A DNA stretch of 33,433 nt, taken from Bacteroidales bacterium. GTDB taxonomy: Bacteria > Bacteroidota > Bacteroidia > Bacteroidales > PUMT01. The position numbers and the translations under genes were made by a program. The DNA is taken from positions 1-33,433 of the forward strand of contig SKND01000232.1 of NCBI GenBank assembly GCA_007120695.1, given 5' to 3'. The notes under the pieces were generated by a model, which saw only the letters and a list, made by a program, of their open reading frames with translations, was not told where the DNA came from and did no database searches. Shown here one piece after another: positions 874 through 33,433 of this stretch (positions are counted from its first letter, which is position 1; the number at the start of each line of letters is the position of its first letter).

Positions 874-1051
874 TTATGAGACATATTCTTGAGTTAAAAA
901 TAGGATAAGAAACATTTATGGCTCTGTTTTTAATTGATGATTCAGGTAGCTAAGGGTTTTGAAATTCTACTATACCCGGAACCCGGGCTATTAACACAAC
1001 ATATGATTGTTCTGTAAATTTTTGCTTTTTATGAACTTAAAATTTGGAATA

Positions 1052-4000
1052 ATGAACCCATCAAAAAAACTTTTTTCTGGATTTTCAATACTTTTCTGCT
1101 TGATTATTGCCTTCACTGCTTGCCAGCAGGATAGAAATGAAGTGGCTTACGAGACAAAGATAAATGATTATAAGAGTCTGATCGATAATTTCAGAAATCC
1201 TGATTCAGAATATCGTTCTGTTCCACTTTGGGTGTGGCATGAAGTTATCACGAAGGAAAAAATTGACCTGAAGCTTGCAGAGTTTAAGGATAAGGGGTTT
1301 GGGGGATTTTTTGTGCATCCCAGGTATGGAATGATAACAGAGTACCTTTCAGATGATTGGTATGAAATGTTCGGGTATACACTTGAAGTGGCAGAAGAGC
1401 TGGGGTTATATGTTTGGATATACGACGAAAATTCATATCCCAGTGGTTTTGCAGGAGGTTTGGTACCTCATTATATGCCTGATTCATACAAGCATGGCCA
1501 GTCCATACGAATTCACAGGACAAATGAATTCAAAATTGACCCGGATCTGAGATACCTGCATTATTTTGAGGTCATGCCGAACGGCGATTTGGTTGAATTT
1601 GATAATCCTGATGAAAGAACAGGAGATAAAGGAGAATTTGTTTTATTTGAGATTGTTAATTATCCAACCACCAAGTGGCATGCAGGGCATTCATATGTCG
1701 ACCTGCTTTATCCGGGGGTAACTGAAAAATTTATGGAGATTGCAATTGAGGGTTACCAGGAAAGGTTTGGTGAACATTTTGGGAATCTGATACCCGGAGT
1801 ATTTACTGATGAACCCAATATTGCTCCAACAGGGGGCAGGACAGCTGTAAAATGGACTCCCGATCTCTATGAGGAATTTGAAAAACGATGGGGTTACAGG
1901 CTTCAGGATAACCTGCTTTCACTTTTTGAGGAGGCTGGAGACTGGAAAAGGGTAAGACATAATTATTTTCAGCTTTTGCTTCAGATGTTTATAGACCGTT
2001 TTGCAAAACCATGGTTTGAGTATACGGAGGAACATCAGCTTAAATGGACCGGGCACTACTGGGAACATGGCTGGCCCAGTCCGCACCATGGAGGGGATAA
2101 CATGGCCATGTATGCATGGCATCAGGTTCCGGGAATTGACCTTTTGTTCAACACTATTTTTACAACTGAACGGCCTACACAATTTGGCAATGTCAGAAAT
2201 GTAAAGGAGGTAAGAAGCGTGGCTAACCAGACAGGGAGGACTCGAACACTGTCGGAAACATACGGTGGTGCCGGTTGGGAGCTTACCTTCGAGGATATGA
2301 AAAGGCTGGGTGACTGGATGTATGTGCTTGGAGTTAATTTCATGAACCAGCACATGACTCATACAACACTCCTGGGGGACAGGAAGCATGATTACCCGCA
2401 ATTCTTTTCCTACCATTCCCCATGGTGGGATCTTTACGGTTACCAGAATGATTATTTTGCAAGGCTGTCGGTGGCAATGTCGGCCGGCAGACAAAAAAAC
2501 AATATCCTGGTTATTGAACCTACTACCAGCACGTGGATGCATTATTCTTCCTATAGTCGTGACCCATATATAAATGAGATTGGTGACAACTTTCATGATC
2601 TTCTGGACAAACTTGAACAGTACAAGATAGCATATGACCTGGGCTCTGAAAATATCATAAAGGATATCGGTGCAATTGACAACGGCCATTTTGTCGTGGG
2701 AGAAGCTCAATACGATCTTGTAGTTCTTCCTTTCGGAATGAAAAATATTGACAGACCCACTTTTTCGCTCCTGGAGCAGTATCTGGAATCAGGCGGCAGG
2801 GTTGTTTCACTGCAAACAATACCTGACCGGATAGAAGGCGCTGAATCCGATGATGTTGTAAAGCTTATGAATGATTATGAAGATCAGTGGAAACATTCCT
2901 CCTGTTTTACGGATGCCGATGTTTATCAGTTATTTGAAAATAGGAATCTGAAGTTCAGCGAGTCTTCCATGATGTCTAAATGGTTTTTTCATCATGTAAG
3001 AGAGTTGGACGACGGAAGGCTGGTATTCCTTGTGAACACATCTCCTGATGAAATCTTCGAGGGTAATTTTACTGCAGTTGGAAAAACAGTTATTGGGCTT
3101 GATCCTGCCACGGGTGATGAAGCTTCCTATCCTTTTACCTCAGGAGAAGAAGATATAAATGTTGAATTTCTGATCAGGCCCGCCGGATCTCTGTTACTCT
3201 TTATATCCGATGATGAAATGGAGGTTTCAGTCCCTCATGAAAAGCCTGAAGCAGATATAATACTGGAGACCGGTATCAGTGCTGTAAGACCATTAACCGA
3301 AAATATGCTGACCCTTGATTATGGTGAGCTATTCTTGAATGGCGAATCACATGGTAGAATGTATTACTATGCAGCTGGCAATATAATCTGGCAGGATCAT
3401 GGATATCCTGACAATCCCTGGGCAAATTCAATCCAGTTTAAAACTGAATTGATTGATGCCGATACTTTTGCAATCGATACAGGATTCGAGTTTGTATACG
3501 ACTTCAATATCTCGGAAGGGACAGATCTGTTATCCATGACAGCTGTAGCTGAAAGACCTGAAATATTCAAGCTGTCAATAAATGATATCAGCCTGGAACC
3601 AATCCCGGATAGATGGTTTCTGGATAAGGATTTTGTTGTGTATGCCATAGGTGAGCACCTTAATGCCGGGGAAAACAAAATCAAGCTTAAGGTTGAGCCA
3701 ATGAGTATGCTGGCAGAGTTGCATACTATTTATCTTACTGGTAACTTTTCACTTCGCAGTGCAGAAAAAGGTTGGGACATATTCCCTTTAGAGCCATTAT
3801 CTATTGGGTCATGGAAAGAGTCAGGCTATCCTTTCTACTCCGGTCAGGTTATGTATACAAAGAATCAGTCATTTTCTGAGGTACCGGAAAGAGCTGTTGT
3901 TCAGCTTGGGGAATGGGAGGGTACCGTTGCTGAAGTCAGAGTTAATGACCAGCATGCCGGGATAATACAACAACTTCCCTACCAGGCAGATATAACAGAT

Positions 4001-4210
4001 TGGCTCGTTACGGGCGATAACAAGGTTGAGGTAATAGTATACGGATCGCATAAAAACCTGCTGGGTCCGCACCACAATGTTACCAGAAGAGGTATTGCAA
4101 CCCCGTGGGATTTTAAGAGTGCTCCTGATATCCAACCTCCAGGAGAGGAATATGACCAGCTTGATTACGGCTTATTGGAAGATTTTAGCATTAAGGTAGC
4201 AAGTAAATAA
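1052..4210 (+). CDS. GH106-related TIM-barrel lipoprotein, putative glycoside hydrolase
   Basis: A 1052-residue exported protein. I start at ATG 1052 because it gives a clean Sec lipoprotein signal with lipobox FTAC (Cys24); the upstream TTG 1007 and ATG 1031 only lengthen the n-region. Residues 55-135 carry the fold seen at the start of GH106-like proteins: PLWVWHEV, a GFGGFFVHPRYGM strand, then IYDENSYPSG. Candidate acidic residues are D253/E254 in GVFTDEPN and E402 in TLSETYGG, where GH106-type enzymes keep their glutamates. The last 150 residues look like a galactose-binding or GH2-type sandwich with Trp-rich strands. The match to true GH106 is distant (compare the gene at 24269), so rhamnosidase activity is inferred, not shown. 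It lies 16 bp before the next GH78 gene, so the two are probably co-transcribed. Confidence 0.75.
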   Translation: MNPSKKLFSGFSILFCLIIAFTACQQDRNEVAYETKINDYKSLIDNFRNPDSEYRSVPLWVWHEVITKEKIDLKLAEFKDKGFGGFFVHPRYGMITEYLSDDWYEMFGYTLEVAEELGLYVWIYDENSYPSGFAGGLVPHYMPDSYKHGQSIRIHRTNEFKIDPDLRYLHYFEVMPNGDLVEFDNPDERTGDKGEFVLFEIVNYPTTKWHAGHSYVDLLYPGVTEKFMEIAIEGYQERFGEHFGNLIPGVFTDEPNIAPTGGRTAVKWTPDLYEEFEKRWGYRLQDNLLSLFEEAGDWKRVRHNYFQLLLQMFIDRFAKPWFEYTEEHQLKWTGHYWEHGWPSPHHGGDNMAMYAWHQVPGIDLLFNTIFTTERPTQFGNVRNVKEVRSVANQTGRTRTLSETYGGAGWELTFEDMKRLGDWMYVLGVNFMNQHMTHTTLLGDRKHDYPQFFSYHSPWWDLYGYQNDYFARLSVAMSAGRQKNNILVIEPTTSTWMHYSSYSRDPYINEIGDNFHDLLDKLEQYKIAYDLGSENIIKDIGAIDNGHFVVGEAQYDLVVLPFGMKNIDRPTFSLLEQYLESGGRVVSLQTIPDRIEGAESDDVVKLMNDYEDQWKHSSCFTDADVYQLFENRNLKFSESSMMSKWFFHHVRELDDGRLVFLVNTSPDEIFEGNFTAVGKTVIGLDPATGDEASYPFTSGEEDINVEFLIRPAGSLLLFISDDEMEVSVPHEKPEADIILETGISAVRPLTENMLTLDYGELFLNGESHGRMYYYAAGNIIWQDHGYPDNPWANSIQFKTELIDADTFAIDTGFEFVYDFNISEGTDLLSMTAVAERPEIFKLSINDISLEPIPDRWFLDKDFVVYAIGEHLNAGENKIKLKVEPMSMLAELHTIYLTGNFSLRSAEKGWDIFPLEPLSIGSWKESGYPFYSGQVMYTKNQSFSEVPERAVVQLGEWEGTVAEVRVNDQHAGIIQQLPYQADITDWLVTGDNKVEVIVYGSHKNLLGPHHNVTRRGIATPWDFKSAPDIQPPGEEYDQLDYGLLEDFSIKVASK

Positions 4211-8827: not shown

Positions 8828-9925
8828 TCATTGCATAGTGATTTCTTTGATCAGTTTTTCAGTCTGAGATCTAACAAATGCATTTTCGTTGGATGCAAGT
8901 CTGTTCAAAATTGATTCTATACGTTTATCTGTATAATGTTCAGGGTGAATTAACTGGAAAATCGGATTCAAAGCTCCTATACCAATATTTTGTTCAGCGA
9001 ACAGCTCTAATAATTTCAGAACTACTTCAGAATCTGTATTTTCAAGTGCCACGAATCTCCAGATTATTTCTTGTTTTCTATGCTGATCAACTTCACGCAA
9101 AACAGATAATAAAAAACTTTGTTCAGCTGTATCAGTTAGCTGTCCTGGTTGAAAATAATCTAATGCATGCTGAGAAATGCGGGGGTTGTCAGATTGTATC
9201 ATATTGGCAATTATTTCATAAAACTCCTTATGATATTCCGGATTGTTATTTATATAATTAATAGCCCATTTTTGATAAACAGGATTTTCATTTTCAAATA
9301 GCAGTCTGAGATATTCCTGGTTTACCCTCTTATCTAAAAGAGAAATTATTTTGTCTCTTGTATGTCCATATACAGTATGCCATAAAGTATGACAAGTATA
9401 TATAGCACCTTTAACGGTTATATGTTCCAAACCAGGATCTGTTGCAGATGTAATGCCGTCTACCCCTTTAAGTTTATTAGATTCTTCTTCAATGGTCAAA
9501 TCTGCGGGTTCTAAATTTCTGAGAATGGATGAAGGATTACTCAATACATTATCAAGTTTTTTGTAATCAGCAAAGTCAAATTCTGTATTATCCGATTTTG
9601 TCAATGGGTTATTATCAGTGAGTTGAATACCCAGATAATTTCCCACCCCATCCCAAAATAACCATAATTCAATCATTTTACATTCACCGGTCATACAAAC
9701 ATCTTTAAAAATTTCACGACCAAACCAGACGGTAATTCCCCTTTCATCCTGGAGCTCATAAATTTCTTGTCCCGATAAAGAATCAATTTTATCAGGAAAA
9801 GGATGAGTCAGCAAATTCCCCTCCATATCCCAAAAACCCTTATCAGGTTTCTTTGTATACACCTGCGTTTGTATTGGTGTTAGGAATAAAAAAGGTAGAA
9901 TTAAGAATAAAATATTTGGTTTCAT
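8828..9925 (-). CDS. Exported FMN_bind-like domain plus HEAT-like repeat protein
   Basis: 365 residues, the only convincing gene on the minus strand. A Sec signal peptide (about 1-20, no lipobox) is followed by a region resembling periplasmic FMN_bind-type domains: a Cys pair in DVCMTGECKM (C77, C82), WDGVGNYLGI, then DGITSAT (156-162) and VKGAIYTCHTLWHTVYG. In FMN_bind proteins the motif D-x-[IV]-[ST]-G-A-T carries FMN on the last Thr; here Ser replaces Gly, so covalent flavin on T162 is only possible. Residues about 190-365 are helical repeats of HEAT-like spacing. It is flanked by AT-rich non-coding DNA, and its orientation and lack of any sugar-related domain make it look like an insertion into the PUL. 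Function unknown; an exported redox or scaffold role is a guess. Confidence 0.75.
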   Translation of the reverse strand: MKPNILFLILPFLFLTPIQTQVYTKKPDKGFWDMEGNLLTHPFPDKIDSLSGQEIYELQDERGITVWFGREIFKDVCMTGECKMIELWLFWDGVGNYLGIQLTDNNPLTKSDNTEFDFADYKKLDNVLSNPSSILRNLEPADLTIEEESNKLKGVDGITSATDPGLEHITVKGAIYTCHTLWHTVYGHTRDKIISLLDKRVNQEYLRLLFENENPVYQKWAINYINNNPEYHKEFYEIIANMIQSDNPRISQHALDYFQPGQLTDTAEQSFLLSVLREVDQHRKQEIIWRFVALENTDSEVVLKLLELFAEQNIGIGALNPIFQLIHPEHYTDKRIESILNRLASNENAFVRSQTEKLIKEITMQ

Positions 9926-10985: not shown

Positions 10986-13900
10986 ATGAAAACAAAAATT
11001 ATTCGAAAGCTGGGTTATCCAAAAGATTATGTAATAAGGATTCTTGGCATTCCTTGTTTACTTATTTTTTTAACCTTTTTAATCAATAATCAGGTCTATG
11101 CATTAGATTCAGATTACGAATCGATGCAAAGGGAAATTACAGGACAAGTTATTGATGCCGAAACCGGAGAGCCACTTCCTGGTGTTAACATTCTGATAGA
11201 GGGTACCAGCATTGGCGTAGTAACCGATTTAGATGGGTACTACAAGATTGAAGCAGCTGTTAACGATGTGCTTGTTTTTTCTTATGTAGGTTTCCTTTCT
11301 GCAAGAATTGTTGTTGATGATCAGGGGGTGGTTAATATTGAGTTATCACCTGATCTGGCCAGACTTGACGAAGTAGTTGTCATCGGTTATGGTACAGCCC
11401 GACGCAGGGATATTACCGGTACTGTAAGCAGTGTTAATATTGAAGACAGTCCGGTTTCTATGATGCCAAATGTAAATGCACTATCAGCCTTAAGAGCAAC
11501 AACTCCCGGCTTAAATATTGGAGCCACAAATACAGCAGGGGGAAGTCCCCAGTCCTTATTAATCAGGGGACAAAACTCCATATCAGCTTCAAATTATCCA
11601 TTAATAGTGTTGGATGGTGTAATGTACCTCGGAAGTATCAATGATATAAACCCGGCCGATATTGCATCAGTTGATGTTTTAAGAGATGCGTCATCAACAG
11701 CTGTGTATGGTTCAAGAGCTGCAAATGGTGTAATTATTATTAATACGAAAAGGGGCCGAACAGAAAAACCAACACTTTCCTTTACAACTAATACAGGCAT
11801 ATACCGCTGGATTCAACGGCCCCAGATGGCAAGTAATGAACGTAGGCTGGAAAAATATGGTACTCATGTTGGGTCTGATGACCCAATGGAATTTTTATAT
11901 CCTAATGAGCGTAAAAATTATGCAGCTGGCAGATACTATCATGTCCCTGATATAATATCCAGGACAGGAAATATTCAGGATCACCAATTAAGTATCTCCG
12001 GCGGACTTGATAATTTAAATTATTTTCTGTCAACCGGTTTTACTGATCAGAAAGGAGTGATGATTGGAGATGATTATAACAGGATTTCTTTAAGAGGGCG
12101 TGTCAACACCTACATTACTGACTGGCTGCAAATAGGAGTTGATGGCAGGTATAATCGTTCAGATTACTCTGGTGTGGGAGTTCCAACTGGCACCATTAGA
12201 TACGGTGATTCATATGAAGAATATTACCGGGGTGATCCGGAAGACGGACTTCTAGAAAAGTGGCCCTTTACAGAAAGGGCACCCGGCATAATGCCTTATT
12301 CAATGAATCCTTTATGGCCAACAAACGCTAATCCTGATCATGTTCTGGATGATGTGAATCTTCAGGATTTTTATAATCTGGCTACCTTTGCACATATTGA
12401 AGCACCATTTCTTGACGGACTCAGCTATCGTGTAAATTTCACAAGAAATTACCGTAATTTCCAGCAGGAAAGATTTTATTATGAGAATTATTTTATAGAA
12501 GGTGGCAACGCAGACGATCTGAGTAGATATAGTCCTGAGACCATAGCCGGTTTTCTCGGTCAGGCACAGGGTTTTACGAGAGACAGGAAGATATCCAACT
12601 ATGTTTGGGATAATATTATTAATTTCAGGAGAAGAGTTGATCAGCATTTTGTTGATATAACACTCGTGGCTACCAGGGATTACCAGTCCGACAGGCAATT
12701 TCAATTGAATGGCAGCAATTTCCTTGACAACGGCAACACCCTTCTCGGAATTGACGGTATAACTCTGGCTGCTAACCAAACAAATACTAATAATCATACT
12801 GAATTTTCGAATATTGGTTACCTGGCCCGTCTGAATTACACCTTTAATGACAGATATCATCTAACTTCTTCGTTCCGCAGGGATGCTTCCTCTGTGTTTG
12901 GTGCAAGGAATAAATGGGGAAATTTCCCGTCAGTCGGTCTGGCATGGACAATAACGGAGGAAGATTTCATGCAAGGTAATGAATTTATTAATTACCTAAA
13001 GGTTAGGACTTCATATGGAAAAAACGGAAACCAGGGCATTTCGGCTTATCAAACATTGGCTCGTGTTGCAGCCGGACAATCAGGCGGAATAAGGTATCAG
13101 TTTGGTGATCAGCCTGGTGCTTCAAGATATGGTTTGGCTCTGACTTCGCTTGGAAATGATCTGTTGGGTTGGGAAACAACTACATCATTAAATTTCGGAT
13201 TTGAAGCTGCCTTGCTGCAGGAACGTCTTTTTGTGGATTTGGATTTCTATTTTTCAGAAACAGTCGACCAGCTATTTGTCAGACAAATTCCAATTATGAC
13301 CGGGTTTGGGTCAATAAGGGCAAGTATGGGTCAGGTTGACAACAGGGGCATCGAACTGTCACTACGCACAATTAATATACAAAATAGTATCTTAACATGG
13401 TCATCTCACTTAACATTTTGGCAGAACAGAAATATCCTTGCCGAGTTATATGGTGACGGAAGAGATGATATCGGAAATAATCTGTTTATAGGGAAATCCC
13501 TCAATGCCATATATGGCTTTGAGTGGATCGGCATTGTTCAGGAAGATGACACCGAGTATATGGAAAATACCGGTGCAAGTCCCGGTGATGCCAAATATGC
13601 CGATTTAAGTGGAGATGGAAGAATTACTTTTGACGATGACCGGAAAATTTTAGGTTATCAAAAGGAAAACTTCAGGTTAAATCTTTCCAACACCTTACAA
13701 TATGGCGATTTCGAGTTTTATGTACATCTATCAGGTGTTTTTGGTGGAGGTGATAATTATTACATGTCACCCAATCCGGGGGCTTATTTAGCAAATCAAC
13801 CTGGGTTTGTTAGAATGGAGTTTTTAGATCACATTGATTATTGGACGCCCGAAAACCCAAGTGATACATATCCCTCTATCTACTATGATGAACCCCGGTT

Positions 13901-14135
13901 TCTGGGATTGCAATCCAGGACTTTTGTACGAGTGCAGGATGTAGTCTTATCATATACATTCAGAGGAGACTGGATGAGAGACATAAATATAGAGGGACTG
14001 CGAGTAAATGTATCTGGTCAAAACCTCTATACATTTACCGGCTGGGATGGTGAACCTGAGATGGGATTTGGCGGCTGGGACCGTTATTATCCGATTCCTG
14101 CAAGTTATACGCTGGGATTTAATATCACTTTTTAA
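10986..14135 (+). CDS. SusC/RagA-type TonB-dependent outer-membrane transporter
   Basis: 1049 residues, normal for the family. A long signal peptide ends around VYAL (residue 40). It is followed by a CarboxypepD_reg-like domain (ITGQVIDAETGEPLPGVNI from residue 51), the TonB-linked hallmark DEVVVIGYGTARRRDITG (from 129), a plug domain with LRDASSTAVYGSRAANGV, and a 22-strand barrel ending in YTLGFNITF with the terminal Phe expected for Bam insertion. There is no N-terminal STN domain, so it does not look like a transporter that signals directly to an anti-sigma factor. It imports oligosaccharides together with the SusD lipoprotein encoded 22 bp downstream. The long upstream leader suggests regulated expression. 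Substrate specificity is inferred from the neighbouring rhamnosidases and sulfatases. Confidence 0.97.
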   Translation: MKTKIIRKLGYPKDYVIRILGIPCLLIFLTFLINNQVYALDSDYESMQREITGQVIDAETGEPLPGVNILIEGTSIGVVTDLDGYYKIEAAVNDVLVFSYVGFLSARIVVDDQGVVNIELSPDLARLDEVVVIGYGTARRRDITGTVSSVNIEDSPVSMMPNVNALSALRATTPGLNIGATNTAGGSPQSLLIRGQNSISASNYPLIVLDGVMYLGSINDINPADIASVDVLRDASSTAVYGSRAANGVIIINTKRGRTEKPTLSFTTNTGIYRWIQRPQMASNERRLEKYGTHVGSDDPMEFLYPNERKNYAAGRYYHVPDIISRTGNIQDHQLSISGGLDNLNYFLSTGFTDQKGVMIGDDYNRISLRGRVNTYITDWLQIGVDGRYNRSDYSGVGVPTGTIRYGDSYEEYYRGDPEDGLLEKWPFTERAPGIMPYSMNPLWPTNANPDHVLDDVNLQDFYNLATFAHIEAPFLDGLSYRVNFTRNYRNFQQERFYYENYFIEGGNADDLSRYSPETIAGFLGQAQGFTRDRKISNYVWDNIINFRRRVDQHFVDITLVATRDYQSDRQFQLNGSNFLDNGNTLLGIDGITLAANQTNTNNHTEFSNIGYLARLNYTFNDRYHLTSSFRRDASSVFGARNKWGNFPSVGLAWTITEEDFMQGNEFINYLKVRTSYGKNGNQGISAYQTLARVAAGQSGGIRYQFGDQPGASRYGLALTSLGNDLLGWETTTSLNFGFEAALLQERLFVDLDFYFSETVDQLFVRQIPIMTGFGSIRASMGQVDNRGIELSLRTINIQNSILTWSSHLTFWQNRNILAELYGDGRDDIGNNLFIGKSLNAIYGFEWIGIVQEDDTEYMENTGASPGDAKYADLSGDGRITFDDDRKILGYQKENFRLNLSNTLQYGDFEFYVHLSGVFGGGDNYYMSPNPGAYLANQPGFVRMEFLDHIDYWTPENPSDTYPSIYYDEPRFLGLQSRTFVRVQDVVLSYTFRGDWMRDINIEGLRVNVSGQNLYTFTGWDGEPEMGFGGWDRYYPIPASYTLGFNITF

Positions 14136-14157: not shown

Positions 14158-15876
14158 ATGAAAACAAAAATCAGGATATTTAAGTTTTTAATTTTTCCAT
14201 TAGTACTCTTAATGGGAACATTAGGCTGCGAGAAGGATGAAGATTTCATAAGAGAAGTACCAAATACATTTTACACCCTGGAAAATGCTTTTTCTACAGC
14301 AAGTCAGGTTGATGCAGCCGTTATTGCATGCTACCAGCATGCCAGAAATATTTACTGGCCTAACCATCATACTGCCTATACACTTAAGGGCAAGGGAACT
14401 GATGTTATTGATGTTCCATTGCTCAGAATTGGTAGTACCTTATCCGATTATAGCAGGAATGATCCTGAAACGGGTGAGTTTAACTCGATTTATTCCACGT
14501 TTTATCAACTCATTTCTAAAGCTAATACAGCACTTTTTGCTGCCGAATTGGAACAGATAAAGTGGGGATCGGAAGAAGAAAAAAACTATGTTGTTGCACA
14601 GGCAAAATTCTTCCGTGCATTTGCTTACAGGAATTTAGGTCAATTATATGGTGGTGTTCCGATCGTTGACGAAATTATAACCGAGCCAAGATTTGATTTT
14701 GTTCGTTCGACAAGGATTGAAACGTATCAGTTTGCCATCGACGATCTCGAAAGCATTCTTAACGATTTACCCGAAACGACAGCTTCTGGCGGAAGGATTG
14801 TCAGAGGCGTTGCACAGCATTACCTTGCTGAATTATATCTTTCATTGGGAATAGAGCTTGAAGAGCAAGGCCAGAATGGTGATGCAATGTATGACAAGGC
14901 AATTCAATATGCTGATGGTCTGATTGACGGGGGACTGTATTCTTTGATGACAGAAAGGTTTGGCACCCGGATGGATGAAACCCCCAGTACTCGTTTTTGG
15001 GATCCCGGAACCGCTGATGTATACTGGGATTTGTTTCAGGAGGGGAATGTAATGTATCAGGATGGAAATTCTGAGACAATATGGGCGTTCCCTATCGACT
15101 TTGAAGCATGGCAAGCTGAAGATGGACAGTCCAGGTTACCATATATACGTAGCTTTGGCCCGGTTTTCCGCTGGATAGACGGTTTTATTGGAGTTGAAGA
15201 AGATGGCGGAGGACGCGGAGTTGCTTTTGTTACACCAACAATGTATACAAGATATGATGTTTGGGAGGGACCTGTTGGAGAGAATGATATGAGAAATGCC
15301 GAACATAATTTTCGCAGGATGTTTTATTATAATGACCCTGATCATCCAAACTATGGAGAGGTAATTCCATATTCTGAGATATACAGGGATGATAATTTCA
15401 GGGGAATGATATTTCCTGTACATATGAAAATTAACACGGATAAAGTTCGGGGTGTTGATGTCGGAAACAATTATGACAATTTGTTTCGCGATGAATATGT
15501 AGTGCGTTTGCCTGAAACAATTCTTCTGCGTGCCGAAGCTCATTTCCGCAGAGGGAATTTAAATGGTGCTGCTGATGATATCAATTTGATCAGGGACCGT
15601 GCTCAGGCTGATTACCGGGTTACATCAGCGGATGTTGATATTGATTTTATTCTTGATGAACGCACAAGAGAGCTATATGCTGAAGAACATCGCTGGAATA
15701 CCTTATTAAGGATGGGAGGCACAGTTGCTGTAGACCGTATCAGGGCACATGCTTTCTGGCCCACGACTCAGGCTACATTAACCTGGGATTTTAATCTGTG
15801 GCCGATACCACAACCTGTTATTGACAGGAATATTGGTGCTGACCTTGAACAGAATCCAGGATGGACACAATTTTAA
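14158..15876 (+). CDS. SusD/RagB-type surface glycan-binding lipoprotein
   Basis: 572 residues with lipobox LGC (Cys24) followed by the acidic run EKDED, of the kind that directs Bacteroidota lipoproteins to the cell surface. Family marks are QAKFFRAFAYRNLGQLYGGVPIVDE, the TPR-like helices, the long central insertion, RLPETILLRAEAHFRRGN, DERTRELYAEEHRW, and the C-terminal LWPIPQPVIDRN...QNPGW. It forms the lid over the SusC barrel and captures the glycan at the surface. It starts 22 bp after susC, and the pair ends in a strong terminator, so SusC and SusD are probably made at a higher level than the enzymes that follow. Confidence 0.97.
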   Translation: MKTKIRIFKFLIFPLVLLMGTLGCEKDEDFIREVPNTFYTLENAFSTASQVDAAVIACYQHARNIYWPNHHTAYTLKGKGTDVIDVPLLRIGSTLSDYSRNDPETGEFNSIYSTFYQLISKANTALFAAELEQIKWGSEEEKNYVVAQAKFFRAFAYRNLGQLYGGVPIVDEIITEPRFDFVRSTRIETYQFAIDDLESILNDLPETTASGGRIVRGVAQHYLAELYLSLGIELEEQGQNGDAMYDKAIQYADGLIDGGLYSLMTERFGTRMDETPSTRFWDPGTADVYWDLFQEGNVMYQDGNSETIWAFPIDFEAWQAEDGQSRLPYIRSFGPVFRWIDGFIGVEEDGGGRGVAFVTPTMYTRYDVWEGPVGENDMRNAEHNFRRMFYYNDPDHPNYGEVIPYSEIYRDDNFRGMIFPVHMKINTDKVRGVDVGNNYDNLFRDEYVVRLPETILLRAEAHFRRGNLNGAADDINLIRDRAQADYRVTSADVDIDFILDERTRELYAEEHRWNTLLRMGGTVAVDRIRAHAFWPTTQATLTWDFNLWPIPQPVIDRNIGADLEQNPGWTQF

Positions 15877-15992: not shown

Positions 15993-17357
15993 ATGAATAA
16001 AATCAAAAGGAGATCCGTCATAAAATCGTTGGGTTCAATTTCCCTGGGAATGTTAGCTCCTATATCATTAAAAGGTGGTATTAATATTGAAAATGAATCC
16101 CATAATTCTCAGATAATAAGTACCGACGTACTTATTGTGGGTGGAGGTACGGCTGGTGTTATTGCTGCTATTCAGGCTGGTCGCGCAGGTTGCAAGACTA
16201 TGTTAATTGAGAATGGCAGTCAGCTTGGCGGCACCATTACTACCGGCGGTGTAACTTTCCCTGGTTTGTTTCATGCATGGGGCAGAAGAATTATAGGCGG
16301 CCCGGGATGGGAGCTGGTCAGAGAGTCAGTTGATTTGGACCATGGTTTTCCGGATTTTTCAACACCACCCGGTCGTCACTGGCATCATCAGGTTCCTGTA
16401 AATGGCCCTCTATATGCACTGGTGGCTGAAGAAAAATGCCTTGAGGCAGGAGTAGATATAAGGTATTACGAAACTCCTACAAATGTAACTTTTAAGGACA
16501 ATAAGTGGTATGTGAAAATTGCCGGTAAGGGTATACAAAAAGAAGTGATTTGCAATCAGATTGTTGACTGCACGGGCAACGCTGCAGTCACATCTCTGGC
16601 TGGATTTGGTGTGAGAAGAGAAGAAGTAACACAACCGGGATCCATATTGTTTATTCTTGGGGGATATGATTATGAATCCCTTGATCTGGAATTAATTCCG
16701 GACCAATATAGAAATATGCTCAGGCAAAATTGGCGGATCAAGGGGGGAGGTGCTGACTTTAGTAACCAGCCATTCACTCCATATACATTTTTAGTTGTTA
16801 ATGGAGCTGACTCCACAAATTCTGAGTCACATACAAATGCTAATATCAATGGCCGGACAGCGGTATTACAAATTTTACGCGAGCTAAGATCATTACCCGG
16901 CTGTGAAAAAATCAAAATAGTTGATATGAGGCCTGAGACGGCTGTACGTGAAACATTCAGAATTGACGGTGTTTATTCGATTACTTATTCTGATTATATT
17001 AATGGTAAAGTATTTGATGATTCATTATCTTATTCCTTTTATCCTATAGATCTATGGAGAGAGGGAGAACCAATCCTTCAGGAATATTTAGAGAAAGATA
17101 CCATTGCAACAGTGCCATTGCGAGCATTAATTCCAAAAGAAAGCGAAAATTTAATTGTTGCGGGCAGATGCGTAAGTAGCGACAGGATGGCCAATTCTGC
17201 ATTAAGAGTTCAAGCCTCCTGCATGGGAATGGGACAAACTGCCGGAGCAGCTGCCGCGCTAGCCAGTATGAAAGGAACGACTCCCCTGAATGTGCCGCTT
17301 GAGGAACTTAAAAAAATGATTGAGAACCATGGAGGTATTATTCCAAAATATTCCTGA
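15993..17357 (+). CDS. Exported FAD-dependent oxidoreductase (FAD_oxidored-type)
   Basis: 454 residues. The N-terminus KRRSVIKSLG resembles a Tat signal, which would export a protein already folded around FAD. The Rossmann motif is VLIVGGGTAGVIAAIQAG (G50-G52, G55), with E73 at the end of the second strand expected to bind the FAD ribose, then QLGGTITTGGV. A second FAD segment near the C-terminus reads NLIVAGRCVSSDRMANSALR and GMGQTAGAAAAL. Similar proteins of this Pfam group often occur beside glycoside hydrolases, but their substrates are mostly unknown. It might oxidise a sugar hydroxyl or another small molecule. It is the first gene after the susCD terminator and lies 48 bp before the unassigned TIM-barrel-like gene. 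Confidence 0.85.
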   Translation: MNKIKRRSVIKSLGSISLGMLAPISLKGGINIENESHNSQIISTDVLIVGGGTAGVIAAIQAGRAGCKTMLIENGSQLGGTITTGGVTFPGLFHAWGRRIIGGPGWELVRESVDLDHGFPDFSTPPGRHWHHQVPVNGPLYALVAEEKCLEAGVDIRYYETPTNVTFKDNKWYVKIAGKGIQKEVICNQIVDCTGNAAVTSLAGFGVRREEVTQPGSILFILGGYDYESLDLELIPDQYRNMLRQNWRIKGGGADFSNQPFTPYTFLVVNGADSTNSESHTNANINGRTAVLQILRELRSLPGCEKIKIVDMRPETAVRETFRIDGVYSITYSDYINGKVFDDSLSYSFYPIDLWREGEPILQEYLEKDTIATVPLRALIPKESENLIVAGRCVSSDRMANSALRVQASCMGMGQTAGAAAALASMKGTTPLNVPLEELKKMIENHGGIIPKYS

Positions 17358-17405: not shown

Positions 17406-19361
17406 ATGAAAAGATCAGTCTGCATATTGTCCATATTTTTGCAAACCTTCGTTATATTAGTTTTACATGGTAACCAGGGTATAAATCAAAATGTCAGTAA
17501 AGATTTTCCTGGAAAGGGCGGACTAAAGCAAACAACCGGCGGAAAGGCAATAGCACCTGTAGTTGATATTCAGCCCTACCTGAGAGGTTTTCATGACTAT
17601 GAACGTGTGCGTGAAGAGATGCACCTTTTAAGGAAATTAGGTTTTGAAAGGGTCTATTTTGTTCTTTGCCAGCCAGGTTACCCTGCGTTCTCAGACCCCA
17701 ATATTTCAATCATGCCCCCCAATAAAGGAACCGGGAATAATACACTTGAATCAATACTGGCCCTGGGAGATCCTAACTGGGTATATATGTATGAGGCCCA
17801 AAGACAGGGAATGGAGGCCTGGGCAATATTAAAGCCATATGAATCAGGCACCGGTTTCACAATTCCTCATGGAGCAAGTGCGCCATTAAGCAGAAGCCAT
17901 GTAGAAACTATAGGCGGGCAACATATTCATTTTGATAATTTGTTGTCAGATAATCCTGAGTTAAGGATAAAGAGAAAACCTGCCCCGGATTCAATTATCA
18001 AAAGGTTAAATGAGCCGGTGGAATCTGTTGAGATTGCATTTTGCCTTGATTCATTCAAACAAACAACCAGACAGGGGTATTTTGAATTTGAAGGTCTGGA
18101 AGATAGTAAGTTAACAATACCCGAGATTAAGCTGTGGATAAGTCGTGATAATGGTCGTTATGTTAAATATGAGGGTAATTATGAAGTTACTTCGAAAATT
18201 GATTACCGGCTGGCAAGGGATGCGAATGGCTTTCTACTTGGAGATGTACCGAAACGATTCCTGGTCATGACAATAAAAGGGATTAATTTACCTCAGGAAT
18301 TCCGTTACATGGCCATCACTCTTGAGGAATACAGAAATTTTTATTCCATTCCTTATTCCATGATAAAAGCATTTACAGCGAAAGGGGAAATACCTGTTAC
18401 AACAGGTCATCACGTTAGGACCTCTATAAGCCCGGTTGAAAGAATAAAACCTTCTGAGGAAAGGGAGTGGGGACTGGAGTCCCGCCCGGTTACCGGTCCC
18501 CGGGCAGCGGAATCATTCATGGATTGGGGGTTTGAATTTGAGTTTCAGGGCACCGGGCACTGGGGGGATGGTTGGGTAAGCAGTCCTGTTTTTGGTATTG
18601 GAATTGGTAAACGTCAATATATGGCCGGTACCCCCTGCGAAGCTTATCCCGAGGTCCAGGATTACTGGCTTGAGCAGGTCAGGCGGATAATGACTATGGG
18701 ATATGATGGAATTGATTTCAGGCTGCAATACCATTCCGGAAACGTGACAGATTATATAGATTTCGGTTATAATGAGCCTTTAATACAAAGGTACAAGGAA
18801 AAACACGGGGTTGATATTCTCAAAGAAGAAGCGGACCCGATGGAGATCATGAGAATCAGGGGTGAATACTTTCATCTTTTCCTTGACAGGGCTGCTGAGA
18901 TAATCCATTCTCATAACAAGAAAGTCAAGATTCATCTCCGGCATGCACATGAAGAACCCCTTCTGGATGGTAATTTCAATGAGCTTGGTTTCTGGGCAAT
19001 GCCCAAGATCCTGCTTGACTGGAAGCGGGCAGTTGATCTTGCCGACGAGGTAACCATCAAACATTATTATCATAATAATTACCGCCCCTGGATGGCTGAC
19101 AGCATTAAAAACTATGCCCGCAAATCCGGTAAACGGATCTGGGTACATTGTTACATTTCGCAGGGAGGAGAATTAAATGATAATTTCTTTGATGCTGTTG
19201 AAGCCGACGAGAGAATAGGAGGGATTTTATTGTATGAGGTAGAATCGCTGATAAATGTTGGATGGGCACATAGCCACAAGGCATCCGAACCTGTAGGGGG
19301 TTATATTGACGAAAATGTCAACAGGTTGCGGTTACTTATGGAGCGGCTTGAATATAAATAA
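17406..19361 (+). CDS. Exported TIM-barrel-like protein of unassigned family, candidate glycoside hydrolase
   Basis: 651 residues with a Sec signal (about 1-22) and no lipobox, so periplasmic or secreted. I do not recognise a named family. The sequence reads like a (beta/alpha)8 barrel: VVDIQPYLRGF (52-62), RVYFVLCQPGYPAF (82-95) and EAWAILKPYESG (137-148). A beta-rich insertion of discoidin-like appearance follows (about 200-310). The barrel then resumes with GYDGIDFRLQYHSG (432-445), KVKIHLRHAHEE (506-517), EVTIKHYYHNNY (548-559), RIWVHCYISQGGE (577-589) and GGILLYEVESL (605-615). Acidic residues at strand ends, D437 and E611/E613, are the natural catalytic candidates, with H513 and H515 nearby. 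Location between the FAD enzyme and the GH78 paralogues suggests a glycan-active role. A non-hydrolytic role such as a lyase or binding protein is possible. Confidence 0.8.
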   Translation: MKRSVCILSIFLQTFVILVLHGNQGINQNVSKDFPGKGGLKQTTGGKAIAPVVDIQPYLRGFHDYERVREEMHLLRKLGFERVYFVLCQPGYPAFSDPNISIMPPNKGTGNNTLESILALGDPNWVYMYEAQRQGMEAWAILKPYESGTGFTIPHGASAPLSRSHVETIGGQHIHFDNLLSDNPELRIKRKPAPDSIIKRLNEPVESVEIAFCLDSFKQTTRQGYFEFEGLEDSKLTIPEIKLWISRDNGRYVKYEGNYEVTSKIDYRLARDANGFLLGDVPKRFLVMTIKGINLPQEFRYMAITLEEYRNFYSIPYSMIKAFTAKGEIPVTTGHHVRTSISPVERIKPSEEREWGLESRPVTGPRAAESFMDWGFEFEFQGTGHWGDGWVSSPVFGIGIGKRQYMAGTPCEAYPEVQDYWLEQVRRIMTMGYDGIDFRLQYHSGNVTDYIDFGYNEPLIQRYKEKHGVDILKEEADPMEIMRIRGEYFHLFLDRAAEIIHSHNKKVKIHLRHAHEEPLLDGNFNELGFWAMPKILLDWKRAVDLADEVTIKHYYHNNYRPWMADSIKNYARKSGKRIWVHCYISQGGELNDNFFDAVEADERIGGILLYEVESLINVGWAHSHKASEPVGGYIDENVNRLRLLMERLEYK

Positions 19362-32028: not shown

Positions 32029-33433
32029 ATGACTACAAAAGTTGGATTGTTTGGGATTGGCCTTGACACTTACTGGGGGCAGTTTGATGGTTTACTTGAA
32101 AATCTGAATGGCTATCAGAAAAGGATAAGGGAAAAAATCGGAAGTTTTGGTGTAGAGGTAATCGATGCCGGGATGGTTGATAACTCTGCTAAGGCACTTG
32201 ATGCATCTGTGCTGCTTAAAAGCCGGGATGTTGAGATAGTATTCCTGTATATTTCTACATATGCATTATCATCTAATGTTTTGCCGGTTGCCCAGAAGCT
32301 TAAAGTTCCCGTTGTTATTTTAAACCTGCAACCTGTACCTCAGTTAGATTACGAAAAGTTTAACAATCTTGGCGATAGTGGTAAAATGACCGGTGCATGG
32401 CTTGAACATTGCCAGGCTTGTTGTGTGCCTGAAATTGCCAGCGTATTTAACCGGACGGGAATCTCATATGATATAGTGACCGGATATCTGGATGAAAACT
32501 CAGCCTGGGATGAAATTGAAGCATGGACAGAAGCTGTTCAGGTAGCTGCCAGTATCAGGAATAACCGGCTGGGTGTCCTTGGGCACTATTATGGCGGGAT
32601 GCTTGATGTATATACAGATATGCTCAAACAATCGTCGGTATTTGGCACTCACATTGAACTGCTTGAAATGTGTGAACTGAAAAAATATCATGATGAAGTT
32701 ACTGATGAAGAAGTTTCAGAAAAGATTCAGGAGTTTAAGACCGTTTTTGAGGTGGCATCCGATTGTGAAGAACCAGAAATAGAACGGGCGGCCAGGACAT
32801 CGGTAGCCCTGGATAAGCTTGTTAAAATAAGGGATATAGGTTCATTGGCTTACTATTATGAAGGACAGGATGGTAATGATTATGAAAACATTGTCACTTC
32901 AGTTATTGCAGGTAATACACTCCTTACAGGGAAAAACATTCCGGTTGCAGGCGAATGTGAGATAAAAAACGCCCAGGCTATGAAGATTATGGCTGAATTT
33001 GGTTCCGGGGGTTCCTTTTCTGAATTTTACCTTATGGACTTTAAGGATGATGTAATATTTTTGGGGCATGACGGACCTGCCCATTCTGCTATAGCTGAAG
33101 GTCCTGTCAAATTGGTGCCTTTGCCTGTTTACCATGGGAAACCCGGCAAAGGACTTTCCATTCAGATGAGTGTTAAACATGGACCTGTCACACTGCTTTC
33201 TGTTGTGGAAGGAAAAGAAGGGATATTTCTGCTGGTAGCCGAAGGCGAATCTGTTCCCGGCCAGGTGCTTCACATTGGGAATACCAATAGTCGCTATAAA
33301 TTTTCACCTGGTGCAAAAGAATTTATGAATAGTTGGTCAAAACAGGGACCCGCTCACCATTGCGCCATTGGCGTAGGTCACATTGCCAATAAGATCCTTA
33401 AACTTGGACAGATAATAGGAATTGATGTTGTAA
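32029..33433 (+). CDS. L-arabinose/L-fucose isomerase-like protein (3' end cut by window edge)
   Basis: The frame is open from ATG 32029 to the last base (468 codons plus one base), so the stop lies beyond the window. No signal peptide: the protein starts TTKVGLFGIGLDTYWGQF and is cytoplasmic. The segments VIDAGMVD, VVILNLQPVPQLDY, GVLGHYYGGMLDVYTD and DIGSLAYYYEGQDG follow the N-terminal and central domains of the AraA/FucI fold. IPVAGECEI and GGSFSEFYLMDF hold the glutamates that bind the catalytic metal in this superfamily, and FLGHDGPAH follows. It probably interconverts an aldose and a ketose released by the locus, but it is not a classical L-rhamnose isomerase and the sugar is uncertain. 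It is 118 bp after the last sulfatase; that gap shows no terminator. Confidence 0.85.
   Translation, partial: MTTKVGLFGIGLDTYWGQFDGLLENLNGYQKRIREKIGSFGVEVIDAGMVDNSAKALDASVLLKSRDVEIVFLYISTYALSSNVLPVAQKLKVPVVILNLQPVPQLDYEKFNNLGDSGKMTGAWLEHCQACCVPEIASVFNRTGISYDIVTGYLDENSAWDEIEAWTEAVQVAASIRNNRLGVLGHYYGGMLDVYTDMLKQSSVFGTHIELLEMCELKKYHDEVTDEEVSEKIQEFKTVFEVASDCEEPEIERAARTSVALDKLVKIRDIGSLAYYYEGQDGNDYENIVTSVIAGNTLLTGKNIPVAGECEIKNAQAMKIMAEFGSGGSFSEFYLMDFKDDVIFLGHDGPAHSAIAEGPVKLVPLPVYHGKPGKGLSIQMSVKHGPVTLLSVVEGKEGIFLLVAEGESVPGQVLHIGNTNSRYKFSPGAKEFMNSWSKQGPAHHCAIGVGHIANKILKLGQIIGIDVV

Follow-up and report, generated by a model that had tools for sequence, protein, structure and literature searches.

A candidate exported TIM-barrel enzyme distantly related to GHL10 pairs with an FAD oxidoreductase in a rhamnose-linked Bacteroidales locus

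Analysis of a 33,433-nt stretch of DNA from a Bacteroidales bacterium (contig SKND01000232.1; the whole stretch is called the window below) revealed that the gene at 17406..19361 on the (+) strand (the target) has an FAD oxidoreductase as its most consistent partner, which is the new finding of this analysis. The target product appears to be an exported protein of a distant GHL10-like TIM-barrel family. The explanation toward which we lean is that it is an exported (β/α)8-barrel enzyme of a distant GHL10-like branch that processes a rhamnose-containing sulfated glycan, in a pathway with the FAD oxidoreductase and a CX4C-motif protein. Because of its distant kinship with a poorly understood group of sugar-cleaving barrels, and because the FAD oxidoreductase is found in every target-bearing genome identified, the target qualifies well as a candidate new enzyme of rhamnose-rich polysaccharide breakdown, and it is the pairing with the flavoprotein that makes it worth testing.

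The 651-residue ORF described in the initial annotation proved to be real, as the target forms one uninterrupted frame of 651 codons. Its first ~27 residues (17406..17486, + strand) read as a Sec-type signal peptide region, and the N termini of its homologs are similarly Sec-like, e.g., MNISKALTILLLIVTGSVMAQT, with the target and the homologs judged by eye. The upstream genes on the same strand encode a SusC-like TonB-dependent transporter (10986..14135; 46 to 48% identical to the target-adjacent SusC in three other genomes), a SusD-like glycan-binding lipoprotein (14158..15876; ~54% identical to the target-adjacent SusD in three other genomes), and the FAD oxidoreductase (15993..17357; PF12831, E-value of 1.7e-76), which carries a twin-arginine-like leader. 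Downstream, the (+) strand run continues with two GH78 genes, a GH106 gene, and three sulfatase genes, confirming the earlier placement of the target between an FAD oxidoreductase and GH78 genes. Searches of the target against Pfam (0 families at E ≤ 1), NCBIfam, PHROGs, and PDB sequences returned no match, in agreement with the claim that it belongs to no recognized family; specifically, the Pfam search found none of the GH78/GH106 α-L-rhamnosidase domains PF17389, PF25788, and PF17132 in it. Elsewhere in the window, positions 1007-4210 encode a very divergent GH106-like protein (E-value of 1.3e-16) with a jelly-roll domain match that adjoins a GH78, and a gene running off the window (32029-33433) resembles L-arabinose isomerase (E-value of 5.7e-15) and sulfoquinovose isomerase (E-value of 1.1e-14), both far below cut-off.

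Six close relatives of the target were found at 60 to 66% identity, five of them in Bacteroidota and one in a Hydrogenedentota metagenome-assembled genome (MAG). When 84,980 species genomes were scanned for close relatives only, homologs were recovered from Arenibacter catalasegens, A. aquaticus, Kriegella aquimaris, Cyclobacterium qasimii, and the Hydrogenedentota MAG, while the sixth came from genome G610 in a profile search of 299 Flavobacteriaceae. Homologs numbering six at this level of identity across two phyla indicate that the target is more than a product of chance. The gene is seldom present and has a scattered distribution, with carriers making up 1 of 395 genomes in the class, 1 of 16 in the family, and 3 of the 299 Flavobacteriaceae, and no relatives were found on plasmids or viral contigs. 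Since the Hydrogenedentota copy is as similar to the target as the Bacteroidota copies are, sequence comparison suggests that the family has been horizontally transferred. Profile searches also uncovered distant kin in Hydrogenedentota, namely, two proteins that are ~22 to 25% identical and carry the β-rich insert described below (L014 and L015), and a shorter branch that lacks it (L016-L019, L021, and L023), along with one further distant relative (L022). The members of the shorter branch constitute an unnamed shorter barrel family, one of which (L018) extends into a second region. We found no earlier report of the target family in papers on rhamnan enzymes, on PF12831 in polysaccharide loci, or on these genera.

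Whole-genome searches revealed that an ortholog of the FAD oxidoreductase is present in all seven target-bearing genomes at 52 to 61% identity, even where the two genes are unlinked; in one of these (G395), the ortholog was matched as two segments of one gene. Among the 299 Flavobacteriaceae, the target occurs in 3 genomes and the oxidoreductase in 4, with all three target carriers possessing both and only 1 of the 296 genomes without the target possessing the oxidoreductase (Fisher P = 9e-7, a value that ignores shared ancestry and to which two of the three genomes contribute after entering the sample as target carriers). The target is linked to SusCD in four genomes, i.e., the window and G396, G397, and G399. 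In the latter three, the gene order is SusC, SusD, target, FAD oxidoreductase, and CX4C protein; the window differs in having the order SusC, SusD, FAD oxidoreductase, and target, with the CX4C-protein homolog located upstream of SusC on the opposite strand (8828..9925, − strand). The target and the oxidoreductase lie apart in G610, G398, and G395. The CX4C-motif protein of the window has no Pfam family and is 25 to 27% identical to its homologs elsewhere, which are oxidoreductase-adjacent. Specifically, it is the gene next to the FAD oxidoreductase at seven of the eight sites read outside the window (one each in G396, G397, G399, G610, G419, and G395 and two in G398), the exception being the G395 site, a 6.2-kb contig (L076) in which no CX4C homolog was found; in the window itself, SusC and SusD stand between the two genes. 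A DxI[ST]SAT stretch resembling flavinylation sites was present in three of the seven CX4C copies checked. Assignment of the CX4C protein as an FMN-binding-domain protein was unsupported by Pfam at E ≤ 10. Our literature search found no report on the role of flavin oxidoreductases in polysaccharide loci.

For the fold, two AlphaFold models were obtained from a shallow alignment (the window and five homologue loci), and both were weak, with a mean pLDDT of 53 for the first and 50 for the second, which was predicted without the signal peptide and was no better. The initial annotation had described strand alternation and a β-rich insertion, and both were seen, at low confidence, in the predicted models: β and α segments alternate, the first model is consistent with a barrel, and the insertion lies between strands 3 and 4 at ~residues 195-330 (~135 residues; 17988..18395, + strand), with the β-rich segment seen at ~207-330 in the first model. 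It is common to L014 and L015 and absent from the shorter relatives. A structure prediction followed by a Foldseek search had been put forward as a check, and its outcome depended on the model. For the first model, the top Foldseek match was Cwp19 (5oq3, E-value of 8.9e-6), and VIA-align likewise ranked Cwp19 first (Z of 13.6 over 265 residues, and 13.1), with PgaB and GH42 at Z ~11 over 240 to 252 residues. For the second, Foldseek placed at the top not Cwp19 but an N4 tail protein along with sugar epimerases, the latter comprising ketose 3-epimerases and the 3-keto-glucoside 4-epimerase YcjR. As the best matches of the two models differ, the fold by itself does not settle the matter.

Sequence profiles pointed in the direction of the first model. 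GHL10 corresponds to Pfam PF02638, has Cwp19 of Clostridioides difficile as its solved example (5oq2, 5oq3), and also includes DigH. When compared with all PDB sequences, a profile of 16 relatives retrieved Cwp19 at an E-value of 8e-6, which weakened to 0.027 without L022. A profile of the nine long members matched a set of 20 GHL10 sequences with 91% probability (E-value of 1.1e-6; reversed control, 0.1%). In comparison, the close family alone reached only 21%, and a comparison with merely two GHL10 sequences gave an uninformative 3%, the rise requiring both the 20 GHL10 sequences and the distant relatives. GHL10 and GHL6 themselves scored 90% in the same test, so the relation of the target to GHL10 is one of superfamily depth. 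GHL6 (PF14871) was rejected as a relative of the target (probability ≤1.2%). The target does not reach the PF02638 gathering cut-off, and the distant relative L022, at 26.4 bits, falls short of that cut-off, which is 27.9. Motifs common to the target and Cwp19 are DP...EA...GME...PY leading into strand 3 and PEV...DG leading into strand 4. The models weakly support the fold class and the profiles a distant relationship, which makes the target a distant, uncharacterized GHL10-like branch and not a GHL10 member. The proposal that it is a TIM-barrel, glycan-active enzyme of no named family gains partial support, with the GHL10 glycosidase Cwp19 as its nearest relative by profile and by fold, the latter through weak models.

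Next to this kinship stands a different set of conserved residues. In Cwp19, the active-site candidates lie where two strands end, with Asp196 and its neighbor Asp195 on strand 4 and Arg132 on strand 3 (PMC5765458); index 127 of the PDB sequence corresponds to residue 132, as calculated from the construct. Alignment of the Cwp19 NPYR with the KPYE motif of the target (K143-E146, end of strand 3; 17832..17843, + strand) places E146 at the position of Arg132, whose equivalent is not kept, as Glu146 is found in all nine long members. The strand 4 motif DGIDFRLQYH (18705..18734, + strand), which contains D434, D437, R439, and H443, lacks the GHL10 Asp-Asp (Cwp19 Asp195-Asp196), with R439-L440 in its place in 7/7 close members and S-T in the shorter branch. 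E146, D434, D437, R439, H443, and E611 (end of strand 8; 19236..19238, + strand) are invariant in 9/9 long members, and D434, H443, D547, and E611 are invariant in 15/15 aligned relatives, while the shorter branch has H or L in place of D437. The catalytic set initially suggested therefore held in part: D437 and E611 are invariant in 7/7 close members, but H513, H515, and E613 are not conserved, and the conservation check proposed for D437 and E611/E613 likewise retained the first two in all close homologs and lost E613. From the alignment, E146 emerges as a stronger candidate catalytic residue than H513, H515, or E613. As a working guess, E146 and E611 may form an acid pair assisted by D437 or H443.

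The gene context points to rhamnose. In the window and in two other genomes, G610 and G419, neighboring genes encode rhamnosidases, sulfatases, or enzymes of rhamnose catabolism. In G610, a rhamnulose-1-phosphate aldolase gene (TIGR02632, above cut-off) lies ~3 kb past the target on its downstream side, together with rhamnose isomerase-like and kinase genes. On this basis, the substrate may be a rhamnose-containing sulfated glycan, probably algal, and the link to rhamnan envisaged earlier is plausible from the context. Counting against it, no rhamnosidase was seen in the part of the genes around the target that was scanned in G396, G397, and G399. Algae produce methyl-pentose glycans of this kind, which are reported to be difficult for bacteria to break down (PMC8857213). 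In more detail, in G610 (L032, 4963-11343), genes for an aldolase-dehydrogenase, an isomerase-like protein, a kinase, and an NCS1-type transporter follow the target and a BNR-repeat protein, and in G419, which lacks the target (L075, 2837-18407), SusCD is found with a sulfatase, the FAD oxidoreductase, the CX4C protein, CstA, a second sulfatase, and a GH78.

In the reading we favor, the adjacent SusCD pair most likely imports oligosaccharides of a rhamnose-containing sulfated polysaccharide, which the exported barrel enzyme would then most likely cleave or process in the periplasm. The flavoprotein would most likely act in the same compartment on oligosaccharides, presumably those of the same glycan, alongside the rhamnosidases and sulfatases, and the barrel enzyme probably shares one pathway with the exported FAD oxidoreductase and with the CX4C protein. 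A tentative idea, which we consider improbable, is that these three form a redox-coupled module: the flavoprotein would oxidize one of the sugars in the chain that contains rhamnose, the oxidized product would be all that the barrel enzyme can cleave or rearrange, and electrons would travel via the CX4C protein. It is also rather doubtful that the target is a lyase, transglycosidase, or sugar isomerase/epimerase and not a hydrolase, acting, for example, on a keto sugar supplied by the FAD oxidoreductase. Such activity would be in line with the co-occurrence of the two genes, with the second model's matches to ketose 3-epimerases and YcjR, and with the nature of the nearest solved relative, Cwp19, a lytic transglycosylase that cleaves peptidoglycan (PMC6016235). 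However, the epimerase matches stem from a weak model, TIM barrels generally match each other, and the sequence profiles, compared with GHL10, GHL6, and PDB sequences, point to GHL10.

Cwp19, together with the peptidoglycan glycosyl hydrolase DigH (PMC12288456), also raises the question of whether the target is a cell-wall enzyme that lies in this locus by chance. We consider this very improbable: the linkage to SusC and SusD is conserved in four genomes, and this linkage and the very patchy occurrence (1/395 genomes of the class and 3/299 Flavobacteriaceae) fit a catabolic accessory gene and not a housekeeping wall enzyme. A catalytically dead barrel with a glycan-binding or scaffolding role in the SusCD system would fit the change of the GHL10 Asp-Asp to Arg-Leu, the presence of Gln441 at the GH18-type acid position, the adjoining SusD, and the β-rich insert. 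Yet E146, D437, R439, H443, and E611 are invariant in nine members down to ~25% identity, and the family also occurs in the Hydrogenedentota MAG on an 11.8-kb contig without a SusCD match, and we judge a non-catalytic role unlikely.

If catalytic, the target would establish a carbohydrate-enzyme family of its own, whose active site departs from that of its nearest kin at both positions thought important there. The co-occurrence would also provide a lead on how the flavin oxidoreductases of polysaccharide loci help degrade sulfated rhamnose-containing glycans.

Among known systems, the GH78 and GH106 α-L-rhamnosidases share the target's locus and presumably its glycan, but the target is without their Pfam domains. 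The PgaB and GH42 barrels resemble the first model in fold (VIA Z ~11), although no sequence-level match to the target was found. The GH18 strand 4 motif is DxxDxDxE; DGID opens strand 4 of the target, and several GH18 chains appeared in the VIA list at Z ~10. GH18 identity was nevertheless rejected, as all close members have D434-x-x-D437-x-R439-x-Q441, where R439 takes the place of the third Asp and Q441 that of the acid Glu; Glu is found at the latter position in L014 only. Cwp19 and GHL10 resemble the target in the first model's best fold match, in the best PDB profile match, and in the motifs of strand 3 and before strand 4, whereas the target stands apart from them by its lack of a Pfam match, its ~135-residue β-rich insertion, and its setting beside SusCD and a flavoprotein.
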